DNA of 64,000 bases from Umezawaea tangerina (GTDB taxonomy: Bacteria > Actinomycetota > Actinomycetes > Mycobacteriales > Pseudonocardiaceae): positions 248,001 to 312,000 of the forward strand of contig NZ_PVTF01000005.1 in the NCBI RefSeq assembly GCF_003002815.1, in the 5' to 3' direction. Shown here piece after piece: positions 6,873 to 64,000 of the stretch; the stretch's first letter is position 1; each line of letters opens with the position of its first letter. The translations under genes and the position numbers were made by a program. The notes beneath the pieces were generated by a model, which saw only the letters and a program-made list of their open reading frames with translations, did no database searches and was not told the origin of the DNA.

Positions 6873-8104
6873 GACGACTCCCGCGCGGGGCCGTGCTCCG
6901 GCGCGTACGGGAGCCTGGCGGTCACCCTGAACCCGCCACCCGGCAACCACCCGGAGCTGAAGTCGCCGCCGTAGAGGGTGACCCGCTCGCGCATCCCGAT
7001 CAGACCATGGCCGCCGGGCGACCCGCTCCGGCCCGGCCCGGCGGCGTGTCCGTCGTCGGTGACCTCCACGAGCACTTCCCGGTCGGACCCGTCCACGGTC
7101 ACCCGGCACCGCGCGGGAGCCGCGTGCTTCACGACGTTGGTCAACGCCTCCTGCACGATCCGGTAGACCGACAACCCGACCCCCTGCGGGAGGTCGGCCA
7201 CCCCGCGGACGTCCAGGTGCGCCTGGACACCGACCATGCCCACCCGGTCCACCAGTTCCGGCAGGTCGGCGGGCCCCGGCGCGGGCGCGAGCTCGTCGGG
7301 AGGCCGTGGCGCGTCCGCCGCCGAACGGAGGACGTCGAGCATCCGGCGCATCTCCTCGAGCGCGCTGCGGCTGGTGGTCTCGATCGTGCACAGGGCGCCG
7401 TACACCTCCTCCGCGGCCTGGTCACCGGGATCGGCGTCGCCGCCGTGCCGACCCGCGCGGTGGGCCACGACCCTGGCGACCCCGGCCTTGACCGCGATCA
7501 CGCCGATGCTGTGCGCCACGATGTCGTGCAGCTCCCTGGCGATGCGCAGGCGCTCCTCGCCGACCGCGCGCTCGGTCGACGCGTCGGCGGCGCGCGCCGC
7601 CGACGCCCGACGTTCCCGCGCCGTCCTGCCGAGCGTCCAGGCGACACCCATGACCGCGAAGCCCGCCAGGAACCACCCCGGAGCGCTTGGCTGCCAGCCG
7701 GGCCTGCCGAGGACGACCTCCAGCAGCACCAGACCCGCGCTGCACAAGGCGATGCCCAGGGTGGGCAGCCACATGCGGCGGGGTGCGGTGAGCGCGACGA
7801 GGTAGACCGCGAACGCCGTGGCGAGGAAGGGCTCGTTGGTCAGGCCCATCGCCACCGACACCGTGGTCAGGGTGACCACGAGGACGAAGACGGGCAGCGG
7901 CCAGACCCGTCGCACCGCGCCGGGCAGTCCGATGCCCGCGGCCAGTAAGCACCTGGCCCACAGCGGGAGGCCCGCGTCCGGTCCGATCCCCGGAGCCAGG
8001 AACAGCACGAGGGTGTAGGTCGTCGCGACCGCGCAGTCGACACCGATCAGCCCTCCTCGGCGCAACCGCTTGGCCAACGGCGAGCTCCAGTCGTCGTCGT
8101 CCAC
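6869..8104 (-). CDS. Membrane sensor histidine kinase (HisKA_3 type)
   Basis: GTG start at 8104; 411 aa. The first ~160 residues hold four to six hydrophobic segments (for example TTYTLVLFLAPGI and CLLAAGIGLPGAV), so the sensor is membrane-embedded with little outside domain. The phosphoacceptor motif is RIARELHDIVAHSIGVI, and the ATPase part carries EALTNVVKHA, DDGHAAGPG and GHGLIGMRERVTLYGG. It is translationally coupled to the response regulator at 6198-6872. The 167-bp gap to the divergent ABC ATPase gene probably holds both promoters. Confidence 0.92.
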   Translation of the reverse strand: MDDDDWSSPLAKRLRRGGLIGVDCAVATTYTLVLFLAPGIGPDAGLPLWARCLLAAGIGLPGAVRRVWPLPVFVLVVTLTTVSVAMGLTNEPFLATAFAVYLVALTAPRRMWLPTLGIALCSAGLVLLEVVLGRPGWQPSAPGWFLAGFAVMGVAWTLGRTARERRASAARAADASTERAVGEERLRIARELHDIVAHSIGVIAVKAGVARVVAHRAGRHGGDADPGDQAAEEVYGALCTIETTSRSALEEMRRMLDVLRSAADAPRPPDELAPAPGPADLPELVDRVGMVGVQAHLDVRGVADLPQGVGLSVYRIVQEALTNVVKHAAPARCRVTVDGSDREVLVEVTDDGHAAGPGRSGSPGGHGLIGMRERVTLYGGDFSSGWLPGGGFRVTARLPYAPEHGPARESS

Positions 8105-8271
8105 CCACCGACCGTAGTGGGCTGGGCCGGTCCACGCCTCGGACCGTGGTCCGACATCCCCGCGGCCGAGTTCCGCCCGACAGCACCCTCCCCCTCACCC
8201 TCCGGGGGGAGCGCGGAGTTCGGGTCCCGCGCCGATGCGGCCGGTCCCCCGCACGGGCCAGCCTTGTCCGC

Positions 8272-56173: not shown

Positions 56174-56563
56174 GTGATGCCGCTCACCTGGTTGGACATC
56201 AGCGCCGGGATCCCGCAAACCCATGCGTGGCAACGATTCGCCACACCGGCAGGACCGGTTGCCGCAGCCGGTCGCCTCGAACGCGCGGACACCACGGGCG
56301 TCGCCCGCGACCCCGTCTCCGACCTGGTCGGGTCGTCCGACATCGATCCGGCCCACCGGGTGCAGCAGGTCCTGACCGGGCGCAGACCCGCCGCCGGCGC
56401 CCCGGCAGGTGGGCGGAAGGTCGGTTCGACCTCCGCCGCCGTGCAGCGCCAGATCGGCGTCGACCGGCGCTACTTCGGCGTGCTCTTCACCGACGTGCAC
56501 TACGACGACGGGCAGGAAGTGCCGTACGACAGGCCGCTGCGGCAGGATCCGCTGCCCCAACCC
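56174..56563 (+). pseudogene. mhpD: 2-keto-4-pentenoate hydratase remnant
   Basis: The first ~130 codons of a 247-codon open frame (56174-56917) resemble the N-terminal third of MhpD/DmpE hydratases: [20 protein letters not shown], then [19 protein letters not shown] and [20 protein letters not shown]. The catalytic and C-terminal parts (about 150 residues) are absent. At about 56560 the same frame continues into acetaldehyde dehydrogenase sequence, so an in-frame deletion joined the two genes. Confidence 0.75.
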
Positions 56564-56917
56564 GTGTTCGAGTCCACTTCTGCCAAGGCTCATCTGGTGA
56601 ACGCGCCCCGCTACGCCGAGGCCGGGATCCAGGCAGTCGAACTGTTCTGCGCGATCCTGACGGATGCCGACCGCGCCGCCGTCACAGCGTCGATCCACGA
56701 CATGGTCGCCGCGGTCCAGGAGTACGTGCCGGACTACGCGTTGCGCGCCGAGCCGCGGTTCGACTGGGACGGCAACGCCAGGGTGGCGGTGTTCCTCGAG
56801 GTCGAGGGGAACGGCGACCACCTGCCGCCCTGCGCGGGGAACCTGGACATCATGACCGCCGCGGCGGCCCGGATCGGGGAACTCATGGCCACCGCGAAGC
56901 TGGAGGCGACGGCATGA
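56564..56917 (+). pseudogene. mhpF: Acylating acetaldehyde dehydrogenase remnant
   Basis: In the same open frame as the hydratase remnant. It begins [20 protein letters not shown], matching the middle of MhpF/DmpF, and jumps to [26 protein letters not shown] and [21 protein letters not shown], the conserved C-terminus. The NAD-binding start and the catalytic Cys region are missing. Its TGA still overlaps the next start by 4 bp (ATGA), a trace of the ancestral operon. Confidence 0.75.
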
Positions 56918-59032: not shown

Positions 59033-59103
59033 GCCTAGGATCGGGAGGCCGTGGATATCGCCCGAGGTCAGGGGCAGCCTGAGAACACCCAGCCAGCCTA
59101 GGC
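59033..59103. promoter_or_regulatory. Paired CCTAGG motifs in the XRE/SDR divergent gap
   Basis: GCCTAGGA (59033-59040) and GCCTAGGC (59096-59103) share the hexamer CCTAGG, 63 bp apart, about six helical turns. The first overlaps TAGGAT (59036), a possible -10 of the SDR gene. They are candidate sites for the divergent XRE regulator. Confidence 0.4.
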
Positions 59104-59117
59104 ACCAGGAGCAGAAC

Positions 59118-60107
59118 GTGGCCCGCACACGACCGGACATCACCGTTCCCGACCTCTCCGGGAAGCTCGCCGTCGTCACCGGCGCCAGCGACGGGGTCGG
59201 GCTGGGCTTGGCCGCCCGGCTGGCCGCCGCGGGCGCCGAGGTCGTCATGCCCGTCCGCAACCGCGCGAAGGGTGCCGCGGCGGTCGCGAGGATCAAGCAG
59301 CAGCACCCGCACGCGGTCCTGTCCCTTCAGGACCTCGATCTGTCCTCACTGGACTCCGTCGCCGCGCTGGGCGACGTCCTGCGCGGTGAGGACCGGCCGA
59401 TCCACGTCCTGGTCAACAACGCGGGCGTGATGACCCCGCCGAGCAGGCAGACCACCACCGAGGGGTTCGAGCTGCAGTTCGGCAGCAACCACCTGGGCCA
59501 CTTCGCCCTCGTGGCCCACCTGCTGCCCCTGCTGCGCCGTGGCCGCGCGCGGGTGACCTCGCAGATCAGCATCAGCGCGAACCGGAACGCCGTCAACTGG
59601 GACGACCTGAACTGGGAGCGCTCCTACAGCGGACAGCACGCCTACAGCCAGTCGAAGATCGCGCTCGGCCTGTTCGGTCTCGAGCTGGATCGGCGCAGCC
59701 GGGCCGGAGGCTGGGGCATCACCAGCAACCTCGCCCATCCGGGCGTCGCCCCCACCAACCTCCTCGCCGCGCGCCCCGAGGTCGGTCGGGAACGGGACAC
59801 CGCGGCCAGGCGCGTGATCCGCTTCCTCTCCGACCGCGGCATCGTCCTCGGGACCGTCGAGACCGCGGTGCTGCCCGCCCTGCTGGCCGCGACCTCACCG
59901 GACGCACGCGGCGGCCGCCTCTACGGTCCCAGCGGTCCTGGGCACCTGGGCGGGGCACCGGCCGAACAGGAGGTCTACTCACGGCTTCGCGGCGAGGACG
60001 AGGCCGCACGCGTCTGGCAGGTCTCCGAGAAGCTCACCCGGACCTCGTTCGCGACCGACCAGGACGCCCGCCCCGGCACGGGGCGGACAGGTCCGGACCT
60101 TCGCTGA
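59118..60107 (+). CDS. Short-chain dehydrogenase/reductase
   Basis: The GTG at 59118 follows AGGAG at 59107; 329 aa. NAD(P)-binding [12 protein letters not shown], the NNAG motif in [10 protein letters not shown], Ser in [10 protein letters not shown], and the active-site YxxxK in YSQSKIALG (HAYSQSKIA). The length and the C-terminal extension fit the retinol-dehydrogenase/WWOX-like SDR group. The substrate is unknown. Regulated, by layout, by the divergent MmyB-type XRE protein. Confidence 0.92.
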
Positions 60108-60311
60108 CCGCGGTGACCAGGAGGCGGTGCGCGTCGGCAGGGCGCCGCCGTTCAGCACCCCTTCGCGCAGCCCAGTCCGCCCACGTCAAGCGGCCGACGA
60201 AAGTCGGAGCCCACCACCATCCACAGTGGACCACCGGAAGAGGGGCTGGCCAGATCGCCGAGTTTGCGGCATGGTGGAGAGGACATGGACCACGACTCGG
60301 GGGGAGTTTCC

Positions 60312-60680
60312 ATGAACGACTTCGCGACCGCGCTCGCCGAATCCTTCGGCGCCGCGACCACCCGCACGACCGGCCTGGTGATCGACATCTTCGACACCTC
60401 GTCCGAGCGGGCCGCACACGGCCCCATCCCGCCCTGCGGCGGTACTTGCATCTGCAGGGCGCAAGACCCGGTCCTGTCTTGCGGCGGCAACTGCCGCGGC
60501 AGCGCACACGACCCCGTCCTGGCTTGCGGTATCTGCATCGGCAACGCGCACGAGCCGGTGCTCGCTTCCATCTGCCGCGGCAGCGCGCACGACCCGGTCC
60601 TGGCTTCCGGTACCTGCCGCGGCAGCGCGCACGAGCCCGTGCTCGCCTCCGTCTGCCGCACCACCTCGCCGGTGGCGTGA
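60312..60680 (+). CDS. Repeat-bearing Cys-rich RiPP precursor (azol(in)e/TOMM type)
   Basis: The ATG at 60312 follows GGGGGGAG (about 60299-60306); 122 aa. Residues 1-33 look like a leader (MNDFATALAESFGAATTRTT, then GLVIDIFDTSSER). The rest is a series of units of form C-R-G-S-A-H-(D/E)-P-V-L-A-(S/C)-(G)-x at residues 48-60, 61-74, 75-87, 88-101, 102-114 and a partial one to the end. There are ten Cys (42, 46, 48, 57, 61, 72, 75, 88, 102, 115), most in (C/S)-(G)-x-C pairs. The last 4 bp overlap the synthetase gene. No protease site is obvious; the unit borders before Cys are candidates. Precursor role inferred from repeats, Cys content and coupling. Confidence 0.88.
   Translation: MNDFATALAESFGAATTRTTGLVIDIFDTSSERAAHGPIPPCGGTCICRAQDPVLSCGGNCRGSAHDPVLACGICIGNAHEPVLASICRGSAHDPVLASGTCRGSAHEPVLASVCRTTSPVA
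60492..60653 (+). repeat. Two 81-bp tandem repeats encoding paired 14+13-residue units
   Basis: Blocks 60492-60572 and 60573-60653 are exactly 81 bp each and start with TGCCGCGGCAGCGC. Each encodes a 14-residue unit with AHDPVLA and a Gly, then a 13-residue unit with AHEPVLAS and no Gly. The alternation D-long/E-short is strict. A shorter related unit precedes them (60453-60491), and a truncated unit follows. Confidence 0.88.
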
Positions 60681-62878
60681 CCGGGCCGCACATCGGGTTC
60701 AAGCGGCACCTGCGTGCCGAGGTGGTGCCGGGCGACGCGGTGTACGTGTTCTCCGAGGAGGACACCACCGCGTTGCGCGGCCCCCACCTGGAGGAACTGG
60801 CTCCCCTGCTGGACGGGACCAGGGATCTCGCACGGCTGCGCCGGGATCTGCCCGCCTCCGCCGAGCCGGAGCACGTGGCCGGGCTGCTCACCGAGCTGGC
60901 GGAAGCCGGCCTGGTCGCCTTGCGCCCCACCGGTGAACCCGACATCGACCATTCCACGTCGGCCTACTGGGACTCGGTGGGCGTGGCGCCCGCCACGCTG
61001 AACCGCGTCTCCCTGACCGCGGTCGGCGTCGACCTCGGCCCCGCCGCCGACGCGCTGCGGTCCGCCGGGCTGTCGTTGGTGGACGAGGACGCCGACCTGT
61101 CCGTGGTGCTGTGCGACGACTACCTCGCGGCCTCACTGTCTGATGTGGACGAACAGCACCGCGCGGAGGTCAGACCCTGGCTGCTGGCGAAGACCGTCGG
61201 CACGCGGGTGTGGCTCGGGCCGGTCTTCACCCCCGGCGACGGGCCATGCTGGCACTGCCTGGCGACCAGGCTGTGGGCGAACCGGCCGGCCGAGGCCCAC
61301 GTGCGCGACTCGCTCGGGTTGGCGCACGCGGTGGCACGGCCCGCTGTCGCGTTCGGCCCGCTGACCGCTGTCGCGCTGAACCTGGTCGCGCTGGAGGCCG
61401 CCAAGTGGCTGGCCGGACTGCGGCACGACGGGCAGCGCACCCTGTGGACCTTCGACAGCCGCGACCTGACCGGCAGGCGCCACGAGGTCAGGGCGCGTCC
61501 GCAGTGCGCGTCCTGCGGTGACACCGAACTGGTGCGGGAACGCACGCGGCGCCCGGTGCTGCTGCGGTCCCGACCGAAGACCCACACGTCCGGCGGCGGA
61601 CACCGTTCGGCCACGCCGCAGGAGGTGCTCGACACCTACCGGCACCTGGTGAGCCCGCTGACCGGGGTGGTCAAGGACATCAGCCAGGACAGGCGTGGAC
61701 CGGCGTTCTTCAACTCGTTCCGCTCCGGCCCGAACACCGCGCTGGGCAACCGCGGCGCCGCGCACCTGCGCTCGGCGTTGCGGTCGCAGAACGGCGGCAA
61801 GGGCGTCACCCCGTTGCACGCCGAGGTGGGTGCGCTGTGCGAAGCGCTGGAGCGGCACAGCGGCCACGCCGACGGTGACGAGGAGCGGGTGCGCGGCAGC
61901 TTCCGCTCACTGCGCGACCGGGCGATCCACCCGGACACCGTGCAGCTGTTCGACCGGCGCCAGCAGCACGACCGCGCCCGGTGGAACGCCGAGCACTCCG
62001 GCTTCCAGTACGTCTGCGCCCCGTTCGACGAGGACGCCGAGTTCGACTGGACGCCCGTGTGGTCGCTCACCCGGCAGCGGCACCGGCTGCTCCCCACCGC
62101 CATGCTCTACTTCACCACGGCTCCGCACGAGCAGTTCACCGCCGACTCGAACGGCAACGCCGCGGGCTCGTCGCTCGAGGACGCTGTGCTGCAAGGGATG
62201 TTGGAGGTCGTCGAGCGCGACGCGGTCGCGCTGTGGTGGTACAACCGCACGCGCCAGCCCGCGGTGGACCTCGACGCGGTCGACGACGGGTGGATCGCGC
62301 AGGCGCGCCGGGTGCACGCGGAGCTCGGCCGGGAGGTGTGGGCGCTGGACCTGACCTCGGACATCGGCGTGCCCACCGTGGTGGCGCTGTCCCGGCGCAC
62401 CGACCAGCCGCGCCAGGACGTCATGATGGGGTTCGGCGCCCACCTGGACCCGGCGGTGGCGGTCCGCCGCGCCCTGACCGAGCTCAACCAGATGATGCCC
62501 TCGGTCATCGACGGTCGGGGCTGGGACGACGCCGACTTCCGGCGGTGGCTCGAGCAGGCGACCGTGGAGAACCAACCGCACCTGCTGCCCGATCCGGCGT
62601 TGGGAACGCCCGCCCCCGTCGACCTCAGCTCCCCGGACCTGCTCGACGACGTCCGGACCGTCCACAAGCGACTGGAGGAGGCCGGCCTCGAGGTCTTCGT
62701 GCTCGACCAGACCCGTCCGGACATCGGCCTTCCGGTGGTGAAGGTGATCGTGCCGGGACTGCGCGGTTTCTGGGCGCGGTTCGCGCCGGGCAGGCTGTAC
62801 GACGTGCCGGTGCGGTTGGGCAGGCTGACCACGCCCACCGCCTACGAGGACCTCAACCCGATGCCGATGTTCCTCTGA
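60677..62878 (+). CDS. Fused E1-like/YcaO azoline synthetase (TOMM cyclodehydratase)
   Basis: GTG at 60677 in a GTGA overlap with the precursor gene; 733 aa. Residues ~1-85 are a PqqD/RRE-like leader-binding region, and ~85-290 an E1-like domain with the zinc Cys pairs C191/C194 (PCWHCLA) and C277/C280 (QCASCGD). The YcaO domain starts near 310: ATP/Mg Glu residues in HAEVGALCEALERHSG and in GNAAGSSLEDAVLQGMLEVV followed by ERDA. It ends NPMPMFL, the Pro-rich tail needed for catalysis in azoline YcaOs. It should convert Cys (and perhaps Ser/Thr) of the neighbouring precursor to azolines. No dehydrogenase gene is next to it. Confidence 0.92.
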   Translation: MTGPHIGFKRHLRAEVVPGDAVYVFSEEDTTALRGPHLEELAPLLDGTRDLARLRRDLPASAEPEHVAGLLTELAEAGLVALRPTGEPDIDHSTSAYWDSVGVAPATLNRVSLTAVGVDLGPAADALRSAGLSLVDEDADLSVVLCDDYLAASLSDVDEQHRAEVRPWLLAKTVGTRVWLGPVFTPGDGPCWHCLATRLWANRPAEAHVRDSLGLAHAVARPAVAFGPLTAVALNLVALEAAKWLAGLRHDGQRTLWTFDSRDLTGRRHEVRARPQCASCGDTELVRERTRRPVLLRSRPKTHTSGGGHRSATPQEVLDTYRHLVSPLTGVVKDISQDRRGPAFFNSFRSGPNTALGNRGAAHLRSALRSQNGGKGVTPLHAEVGALCEALERHSGHADGDEERVRGSFRSLRDRAIHPDTVQLFDRRQQHDRARWNAEHSGFQYVCAPFDEDAEFDWTPVWSLTRQRHRLLPTAMLYFTTAPHEQFTADSNGNAAGSSLEDAVLQGMLEVVERDAVALWWYNRTRQPAVDLDAVDDGWIAQARRVHAELGREVWALDLTSDIGVPTVVALSRRTDQPRQDVMMGFGAHLDPAVAVRRALTELNQMMPSVIDGRGWDDADFRRWLEQATVENQPHLLPDPALGTPAPVDLSSPDLLDDVRTVHKRLEEAGLEVFVLDQTRPDIGLPVVKVIVPGLRGFWARFAPGRLYDVPVRLGRLTTPTAYEDLNPMPMFL

Positions 62879-62969: not shown

Positions 62970-63010
62970 TTTCCACCACCGGGCGGGAACTCCTGGTGCC
63001 CGTCGCCCCG

Positions 63011-63784
63011 TCAGAAGCCGGCGAACACCCGGCGCAGGTCGTCGAGCGTGACGTTGCCCTCGACGGTGATCCCCTTGTCGTAGGGCGTCCTGAGGCGGCC
63101 GCTGACCAACCGGACCAGTGCTTCCGGCGGCCCGTCGAGCGTCGCCGAAGGCGCCTCGAGGTGGTCCACGACGGTGACCGAGTCGTCGATCACCAGAGCG
63201 GCGCCCGCGGTCGCGAGGGACACCGGGCTCGCCAGCTCGGCGGGCTTCGCGACGAAGCCCAGCAGGAAGCCGATGGGACCGGCCAGCAGGTCGAGGAGCA
63301 CCGCGGCGGAGTCGGCGTCCACCCCGGCGTCCGGGTCGAAGGCCACGCGCACGTCCCACGAGTGGTTGGCCACCTCGTTGAGCCGCATGCCCAACGCGGT
63401 CACCAGCGGGACAGGTTCGGGCAGGAAGCCGAGGTCGACGGTCATCGACGAGCGCTGCTCGGGGGTGAGCGCCTCGACCGTGTCGAGCCAGCGGGCGTTG
63501 TGCTCCAGGAAACCCTCGACCTGCGCGCGCGGAGCGGAGGCGTCCCAGCGGGCCCAGATCGCCTGGTTGTCCTCCGCCGCCACGGTCTCCCCCGCGGCCG
63601 AGGCGATCGGTGCGCGGCCGATCTCCGCGCCGCTGCCGAGGTGGGAGTAGACCTGGGCGACGGTCCACTCCGCGGCACCGCTGGGTGCGGCCAACCGGTC
63701 GTCGGCGAGGCCGCGGGCGAGATGGGCGAGCACGTCGTGCTCGGTGCGCAGGGCGCTGATCGTGCGGTCCACGAGTCCAGTCAT
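63011..63784 (-). CDS. Maleylpyruvate isomerase-family (mycothiol-dependent, DinB-like) protein
   Basis: ATG at 63784; 257 aa. The four-helix DinB-like bundle carries the metal-binding His residues in WTVAQVYSHLGSGAE and in MRLNEVANHSWDVRVAFDPD, with Glu from NEVANH. The C-terminal ~100 residues are the MDMPI_C-like extension. Members use mycothiol for isomerisation or detoxification, but many paralogues have no known substrate. Not obviously linked to the RiPP genes, which are convergent. Confidence 0.9.
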   Translation of the reverse strand: MTGLVDRTISALRTEHDVLAHLARGLADDRLAAPSGAAEWTVAQVYSHLGSGAEIGRAPIASAAGETVAAEDNQAIWARWDASAPRAQVEGFLEHNARWLDTVEALTPEQRSSMTVDLGFLPEPVPLVTALGMRLNEVANHSWDVRVAFDPDAGVDADSAAVLLDLLAGPIGFLLGFVAKPAELASPVSLATAGAALVIDDSVTVVDHLEAPSATLDGPPEALVRLVSGRLRTPYDKGITVEGNVTLDDLRRVFAGF

Positions 63785-64000
63785 GGCACGCTCAACCCCC
63801 GGATGGACCCATCTGTTCCGCTGATCACCGCATCAGGTGAAATCCCCTGCCCGGCCGACCGTCGCCGCGGGGACGACCGCTTGCCCGAATTCGGGGCCGG
63901 AATGGAATACCGACGCCGACATCGATTTCAGGATGCCGCACCGTGCAACCATTCAGCGCAATCGACAGGACCTCGCTGCATCGTTTGCCGCATTCGATTC
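63785..64000. other. Intergenic DNA at window end
   Basis: No gene was recognised in the last 216 bp. The stretch presumably contains the promoter of the minus-strand gene at 63011-63784. The DNA from about 63890 on is less GC-rich than its surroundings. Confidence 0.4.

Follow-up and report, generated by a model that had tools for sequence, protein, structure and literature searches.

A probable two-gene azoline peptide cassette of actinobacteria: a fused E1-YcaO synthetase paired with a precursor of tandem Cys units

The window analyzed here, a stretch of 64,000 nucleotides covering positions 248001-312000 of contig C5 within a 10.7 Mb genome, contains a short Cys-rich open reading frame directly in front of a gene for a fused heterocyclase. 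A first interpretation from the letters alone (the sequence-only reading) had taken the short frame for a peptide precursor, from which several azoline-bearing products or one long polyazoline chain could be made. The locus raises the question whether the two genes belong together and what the repeated units contribute to the product.

The precursor reading frame (60312-60680, plus strand) translates into 122 residues. GC content per codon position did not settle its strand, as one complementary frame mirrors the values (0.902 each); the plus strand was assigned because of the conserved leader and the gene order. No match to the protein was obtained in Pfam (E 0.01). The leader is free of Cys, and the length of about 33 residues first proposed for it was correct. 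The core contains ten Cys residues, six of which (C48, C61, C75, C88, C102, and C115) stand in a register with spacings of 13, 14, 13, 14, and 13, and four of which (positions 42, 46, 57, and 72) lie outside it. The best off-diagonal self-alignment of the core scored 135, compared with 27 ± 5 in 2000 core shuffles (maximum 55). Register and self-alignment confirm the tandem arrangement of five Cys units of 13 or 14 residues plus a partial one that had been read from the letters. The unit consensus given at that time fits units 2-5, but unit 1 follows it only loosely and lacks GSAH. Tandem Repeats Finder reported two arrays in the precursor DNA, one of 42 bases (60440-60639, 4.7 copies, score 203) and one of 81 bases (60491-60659, 2.1 copies, score 268). 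The better score of the longer period suggests that units 2-5 arose by duplication of a D/E pair. Codon comparison of the five units, with 10 codons each, gave 0-4 synonymous and 0-6 nonsynonymous differences per unit pair, too few for selection to be inferred.

Features of the precursor and synthetase genes, in positions of the window
Feature	Position	Strand	Basis
Likely ribosome-binding site, purine-rich GGGGGGAG	60299..60306	+	sequence directly
Precursor leader, 33 residues, no Cys, motif F..AL...FG....GL.ID..D	60312..60410	+	alignment of 21 leaders and profile search
Pre-repeat stretch AAHGPIPPCGGTCI, two Cys	60411..60452	+	sequence
Unit 1 CRAQDPVLSCGGN, looser variant	60453..60491	+	sequence
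Unit 2 CRGSAHDPVLACGI	60492..60533	+	sequence, Tandem Repeats Finder
Unit 3 CIGNAHEPVLASI	60534..60572	+	sequence, Tandem Repeats Finder
Unit 4 CRGSAHDPVLASGT	60573..60614	+	sequence, Tandem Repeats Finder
Unit 5 CRGSAHEPVLASV	60615..60653	+	sequence, Tandem Repeats Finder
Partial unit CRTTSPVA with stop codon, the latter in GTGA overlap with the synthetase start	60654..60680	+	sequence directly
Fused azoline synthetase (heterocyclase), 733 residues	60677..62878	+	PDB sequence search, near full-length match to LynD and TruD
N-terminal winged-helix region PF21084, in the place of a leader-binding RRE (putative RRE role)	60701..60913	+	domain match; synthetase residues 20-81 matched by PbtF 8t19
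E1/ThiF-like domain (TIGR03882), CxxC motifs CWHC and CASC	61172..61672	+	domain match, motif reading
YcaO domain PF02624 (inside TIGR03604)	61796..62764	+	domain match

In the PDB sequence search, the synthetase matched LynD (4v1t) with an E value of 3.3e-153 over residues 4-731 and TruD (4bs9) with 2.6e-152 over residues 7-731. MusD was also among the closest solved relatives and was matched over nearly the whole length. The models PF21084, TIGR03882, PF02624, and TIGR03604 all scored above their curated cut-offs, with 269 bits for TIGR03604 (cut-off 219) and 152 bits for TIGR03882 (cut-off 37); the ThiF model PF00899 stayed below its own cut-off. The enzyme thereby combines the E1-like domain with the SagD-type YcaO cyclodehydratase by which TOMM systems are recognized.

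Relatives of the synthetase at E ≤ 1e-60 were present in 136 of the 390 genomes searched from the host's bacterial family. A group of 22 matches with 68-100% identity, the remaining ones having 63% or less, came out as a single branch (support 100/99; 47 rows in the tree) and is called clade A. It spans four genera of one family, the host's own included, and its distribution is patchy. Named relatives of the synthetase came from Amycolatopsis (66-72% identity) and Lentzea (68-70%). Synthetase and leader searches found no cassette in two other genomes of the host's genus. A second synthetase at E ≤ 1e-60 is encoded in all clade-A genomes except one (21/22); that of the host has 59% identity and lies on contig C2. 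Each of the motifs CExxER, SNGNAAG...E..ERD, DQTRPDIGLPV, and QCxxCG was present in 22 of 22 clade-A enzymes, and the first CxxC was found in 21 with the pattern of this analysis. Position 1 of the YcaO motif SxxxExxER is Gly in 20 of these enzymes, that of the window included, and Ser in 2; Gly also occupies this position in some of the more distant clade-B and Streptomyces members. At the C terminus, the window's enzyme ends in NPMP, whereas several others of clade A end in NPMR or NPRR.

A precursor with the same leader was located just upstream of the synthetase at all 22 clade-A loci, 21 of them recognized by pattern and one by eye. Four loci carry two such genes, and the family comprises 26 precursor genes in all. 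The adjacent precursor with a conserved leader and a Cys-rich core, another mark of TOMM systems, was thus present at every locus. The sequence-only reading had coupled the precursor to the fused E1-YcaO gene, which these loci bear out; homologous clusters in which the precursor gene is not conserved beside the synthetase would speak against it, and the opposite was found.

In an alignment of 21 leaders, F4, F12, and D28 were invariant, and L8, L22, and D25 were nearly invariant. A profile of these 21 leaders gave 26 matches at E ≤ 3.5e-12 in the 390 genomes, all of them within the 22 clade-A genomes; as the profile was built from these loci, matches there are expected, and the lack of strong ones elsewhere is the independent result. 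The next best value was 2.8e-4, and 11 further genomes had weak matches only (up to 0.01), in a search that scored 19 first-look candidates per genome and may miss weak relatives. In three genomes the weak matches lay just upstream of clade-B synthetases and covered the L.ID..D part. In a class-wide sample, searched with the same limit on candidates, one of 394 genomes had a leader match at 1e-4, and this was the window's own. Because all 22 loci are paired and strong leader matches occur only in those 22 genomes, the coupled synthetase very probably takes the precursor as its substrate, and the pairing is well supported.

To compare precursors across the family, the leader was ended at the ID..D motif. 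With this split, all 26 leaders had 24-30 residues and no Cys, and the cores had 25-99 residues, 2-10 Cys, and 0 to 5 strict units. Median pairwise identity was 50% for leaders and 38% for cores (39% and 33%, respectively, for the window's precursor against the others); because a global aligner was used and identity was counted over the shorter sequence, short cores come out too favorably, and the contrast is modest by this measure. The strict unit, C-x(1-6)-[DE]-PV-x-[S/T/C]-C, was matched 23 times in 14 of the 26 cores, compared with a mean of 0.09 and a maximum of 2 in shuffles, a contrast that is descriptive because the pattern was drawn from the same data. Five of the matches fall in the window's precursor, three each in those of loci L039 and L044, two in that of L038, and one in each of ten others; the remaining 12 precursors, including all five from Lentzea, have none. 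A CYTWxADPVRPSVSPC version of the unit occurs in eight precursors and is the sole unit in seven. A genome search for AH(D/E)PVLA repeats, as had been suggested, would be too narrow: relatives carry other versions of the unit, and by inspection the window's precursor is the only one of the 26 that has the exact one.

Internal similarity above all 1000 shuffles was found in 8 of the 26 cores, among them that of the window. The next in line were L048 and L053, whose scores were reached by 2 and 10 of 1000 shuffles, and 16 cores had no clear internal repeat. Since these 16 cores and the 12 without a strict unit belong to the same family, repeats are not needed in it. The window's precursor may be read as the most expanded form of a usually single unit, and we propose that products in clade A diversify as Cys units are duplicated, lost, and mutated while the leader stays fixed. 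Wide core variation and the missing cassette in the two genus relatives could also be expected if the Cys-rich protein were left unmodified by the synthetase, or if the cassette were decaying and the repeats had arisen by drift in a relic. This is very improbable, however, as, across 22 loci from four genera, leaders and synthetase motifs are conserved despite the changing cores, and precursor and synthetase co-occur.

The clade-B and Streptomyces synthetases are of the same fused type as the window's enzyme, at about 46-63% identity, and in most of the loci examined they are directly preceded by a short candidate precursor that has a motif like L.I[DE]..D. With a looser pattern, candidates ending just before the synthetase were obtained at 12 of 18 clade-B and 8 of 8 Streptomyces loci, and one more (L062) was added by reading. 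Their cores are short and by eye without repeats, with 0 to 4 Cys compared with 2-10 in clade A. Six of these sister candidates have no Cys after the motif. This weakens Cys cyclization as a trait of the whole group, unless some of the candidates were misassigned or rely on Ser/Thr instead. Regulators resembling SARP, histidine kinase, and LuxR proteins were recognized by eye at many of these loci, with the kinase matches below curated cut-offs. A SagB dehydrogenase lies beside part of the loci; in the one that was scanned, TIGR03605 was over its cut-off. Four Streptomyces loci carry near-alike candidates with one Cys that end in ALFTLC(V/I)LAPEPAE..., a conserved core unlike those of clade A. 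At L062, on contig C2 of the host genome, a short reading frame (8056-8214) with a single Cys and the motif LVIYEFD precedes a clade-B synthetase and was read by eye as the precursor of the host's second synthetase. The frame that follows this synthetase (231 residues) had no NCBIfam match, SagB included.

The Cys-poor candidates of the sister groups, several with one Cys and some with none, raise the possibility of an ancestral enzyme that modified one site. In the window, correspondingly, one or a few Cys might be cyclized, for example the C-terminal one or those in register, with the others serving as linkers, disulfides, or metal ligands; a special treatment of the C-terminal Cys is described for TruD (PMC3995012). 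We regard this as unlikely. The whole Cys-bearing unit has been copied and not just the last Cys, and many Cys are modified by the closest enzymes of known structure: in the same source, single TruD precursors are described as containing more than eight Cys in as many as four cores, with modification running from the C- to the N-terminal end within a core.

Comparison with known systems placed the cassette near several of them. It resembles the cyanobactins (LynD, TruD, and MusD, with PatE and TruE) in the near full-length homology of the synthetase and in the several Cys-bearing, hypervariable cores described for them behind one leader of 30-40 residues (PMC3995012, PMC4603692). It differs in being actinobacterial. 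The model of the PatA/PatG-type protease, TIGR03895, had 20 matches in the host genome, none over the cut-off and none extending past position 238 of 606, and the (A/S)YDG macrocyclization signature, as given in PMC3995012, is absent from the 122-residue precursor. Membership in the cyanobactins was rejected, as the heterocyclase agreed but neither the PatA/PatG protease nor the AYDG/SYDG signature was found. The thiovarsolins (VarA) are likewise an actinobacterial precursor family, described as ranging from non-repeating to five repeats (PMC6511847), but they carry thioamides made by a YcaO protein with TfuA, whereas in the window's enzyme an E1-like domain is fused to the SagD-type YcaO domain. 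In a scan of 8 window proteins, among them six neighbors, none matched TfuA. Heterocycloanthracin (TIGR03601) is similar in its conserved leader, its strain-variable core of repeated Cys units, and its azoline-type enzymes; it differs in that the units are Cys-Xaa-Xaa, the precursor is encoded far from the maturation operon, and a dehydrogenase is present (PMC2674419). Neither TIGR03601 nor any other NCBIfam family matched the window's precursor at E up to 0.1.

The statement of the sequence-only reading that most characterized azol(in)e precursors carry one core without internal repeats thus fails for the nearest characterized relatives, the cyanobactins (PMC3995012). The rarity it implied was overstated, as repeated cores are also described for thiovarsolins (PMC6511847) and, in the form of Cys-Xaa-Xaa units, for heterocycloanthracin (PMC2674419). 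Cox et al. 2015 (PMC4603692) do not mention Amycolatopsis in their main text. In the titles and opening parts of abstracts of the open-licence literature, the combination of a LynD/TruD-like enzyme, the clade-A leader, a two-gene form, and a variable number of units was not found, and the clade-A precursor family seems to be undescribed. We rate this two-gene azoline peptide family with its hypervariable repeat core as a variant of an already known repeat-core kind.

For the genomic surroundings, reading frames of at least 80 residues within about 5 kb around 48 loci were called with a simple caller and a GC3 filter and then clustered; one locus gave none. The only cluster that spanned the clade-A genera was the synthetase, and all other frames of the window's locus remained unclustered. 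The clade-A cassette therefore seems to consist of the precursor-synthetase pair alone. At 17 of 22 clade-A loci, the first frame called past the synthetase is on the opposite strand. Neighbors in Amycolatopsis and Lentzea, judged by eye on representatives, resemble esterases, a lipase, and a regulator. Among the frames called within about 5 kb, no protease, transporter, or oxidase is common to the clade-A loci, nor was a linked FMN dehydrogenase, an optional feature of TOMM systems, found there. Outside the window, about 5 kb past the synthetase, a large subtilase-like frame (contig C5, 316142-316783) is a candidate protease; it scored below the PatA family cut-off and had no counterpart among the called frames of other loci.

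A dehydrogenase acting in trans was considered as a constant partner and rejected. The SagB model matched in 10 of 10 genomes, in only 8 of them over the cut-off, with weak matches only in two Lentzea genomes. In the host genome there was one match, on contig C1, and matches were also obtained in the two genus relatives, both without the synthetase. Among 14 control genomes the model matched 8, 4 of them over the cut-off. Because matches above the cut-off were thus incomplete and also occurred in controls, SagB is no constant partner, although it may possibly act in trans in single genomes.

The genus relatives did not show where the cassette begins and ends, since blastn revealed no collinear flank in the 14 and 18 kb examined. 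The stretch 59100-60260 gave partial matches elsewhere only, the best with 73% identity over 337 bases (E 7.2e-44). At the site of the downstream gene, 63004-63870 was the only stretch that matched these relatives; this gene, of the mycothiol maleylpyruvate isomerase type, has 87-89% DNA identity in both, with nothing collinear around it. Further upstream, the first part of the frame 56174-56917 (plus strand) matches 2-keto-4-pentenoate hydratase and the second the C-terminal dimerization part of acetaldehyde dehydrogenase, which suggests two meta-cleavage genes whose remnants were fused by a deletion.

Taken together, we consider it probable that the two genes form a ribosomal-peptide cassette in which the leader-bound synthetase cyclizes the Cys of the repeated units to thiazolines. 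The leader motif would be bound by the N-terminal winged-helix region, and the YcaO domain would use ATP for the cyclization, presumably unit after unit as TruD does on a multi-core substrate. The product is likely to carry multiple thiazolines; thiazoles are not expected, as no oxidase is coupled to the pair. Removal of the leader, and probably cutting between the units, would fall to proteases encoded elsewhere. The repeats, the conserved leader, the close genetic pairing, the family and motifs of the enzyme, and the variable cores were observed directly; leader binding, the rings with their order and number, and cleavage are inferences, and the biological role is probably that of a secreted competition or signaling peptide. 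The Gly at position 1 of SxxxExxER, the variation of the C terminus, the lack of a shared protease, transporter, and oxidase, the 12 precursors without strict units, the 16 cores with no clear internal repeat, the Cys-free sister candidates, and the patchy distribution were all counted against this explanation.

Whether cyclized units would be released singly depends on the proteolysis. It is quite conceivable, if somewhat short of an even chance, that the leader alone is removed and the repeats act together as one long polythiazoline chain, comparable with the Cys-Xaa-Xaa core of heterocycloanthracin. The regular 13/14 register and the missing protease gene common to the 22 clade-A loci would agree with such a chain, and the repeated Cys cores of PMC2674419 provide a precedent. 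However, the seven relatives with a single-unit core of the CYTWxADPVRPSVSPCR type suggest that one unit is enough as a product, and thiovarsolins are made from repeats although their cluster is said to lack a specific protease (PMC6511847). The frequency of single-unit relatives and this thiovarsolin parallel tip our analysis slightly toward unit-sized products, with the long chain nearly as likely. Rather doubtful is a self-sufficient pair whose processive heterocyclase lays down a regular thiazoline strand on a tandem-repeat protein free to expand and contract, with about one ring per 13-14 residues and no oxidase, dedicated protease, or exporter; such an evolvable ribosomal poly-thiazoline would perhaps be a metal-binding or structural polymer and not a small antibiotic.

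If the units are cyclized as proposed, 26 predicted natural substrates are available in the family that share a leader type and differ in the number of core Cys (2 to 10). With clade-A enzymes 68-73% identical to that of the window, the LynD/TruD-type handling of substrate length, Cys number, and order becomes testable, and the two-gene form of the cassette is simple enough for expression in a laboratory host. The finding points to a YcaO peptide family that would evolve through duplication of entire Cys units while the leader is kept.
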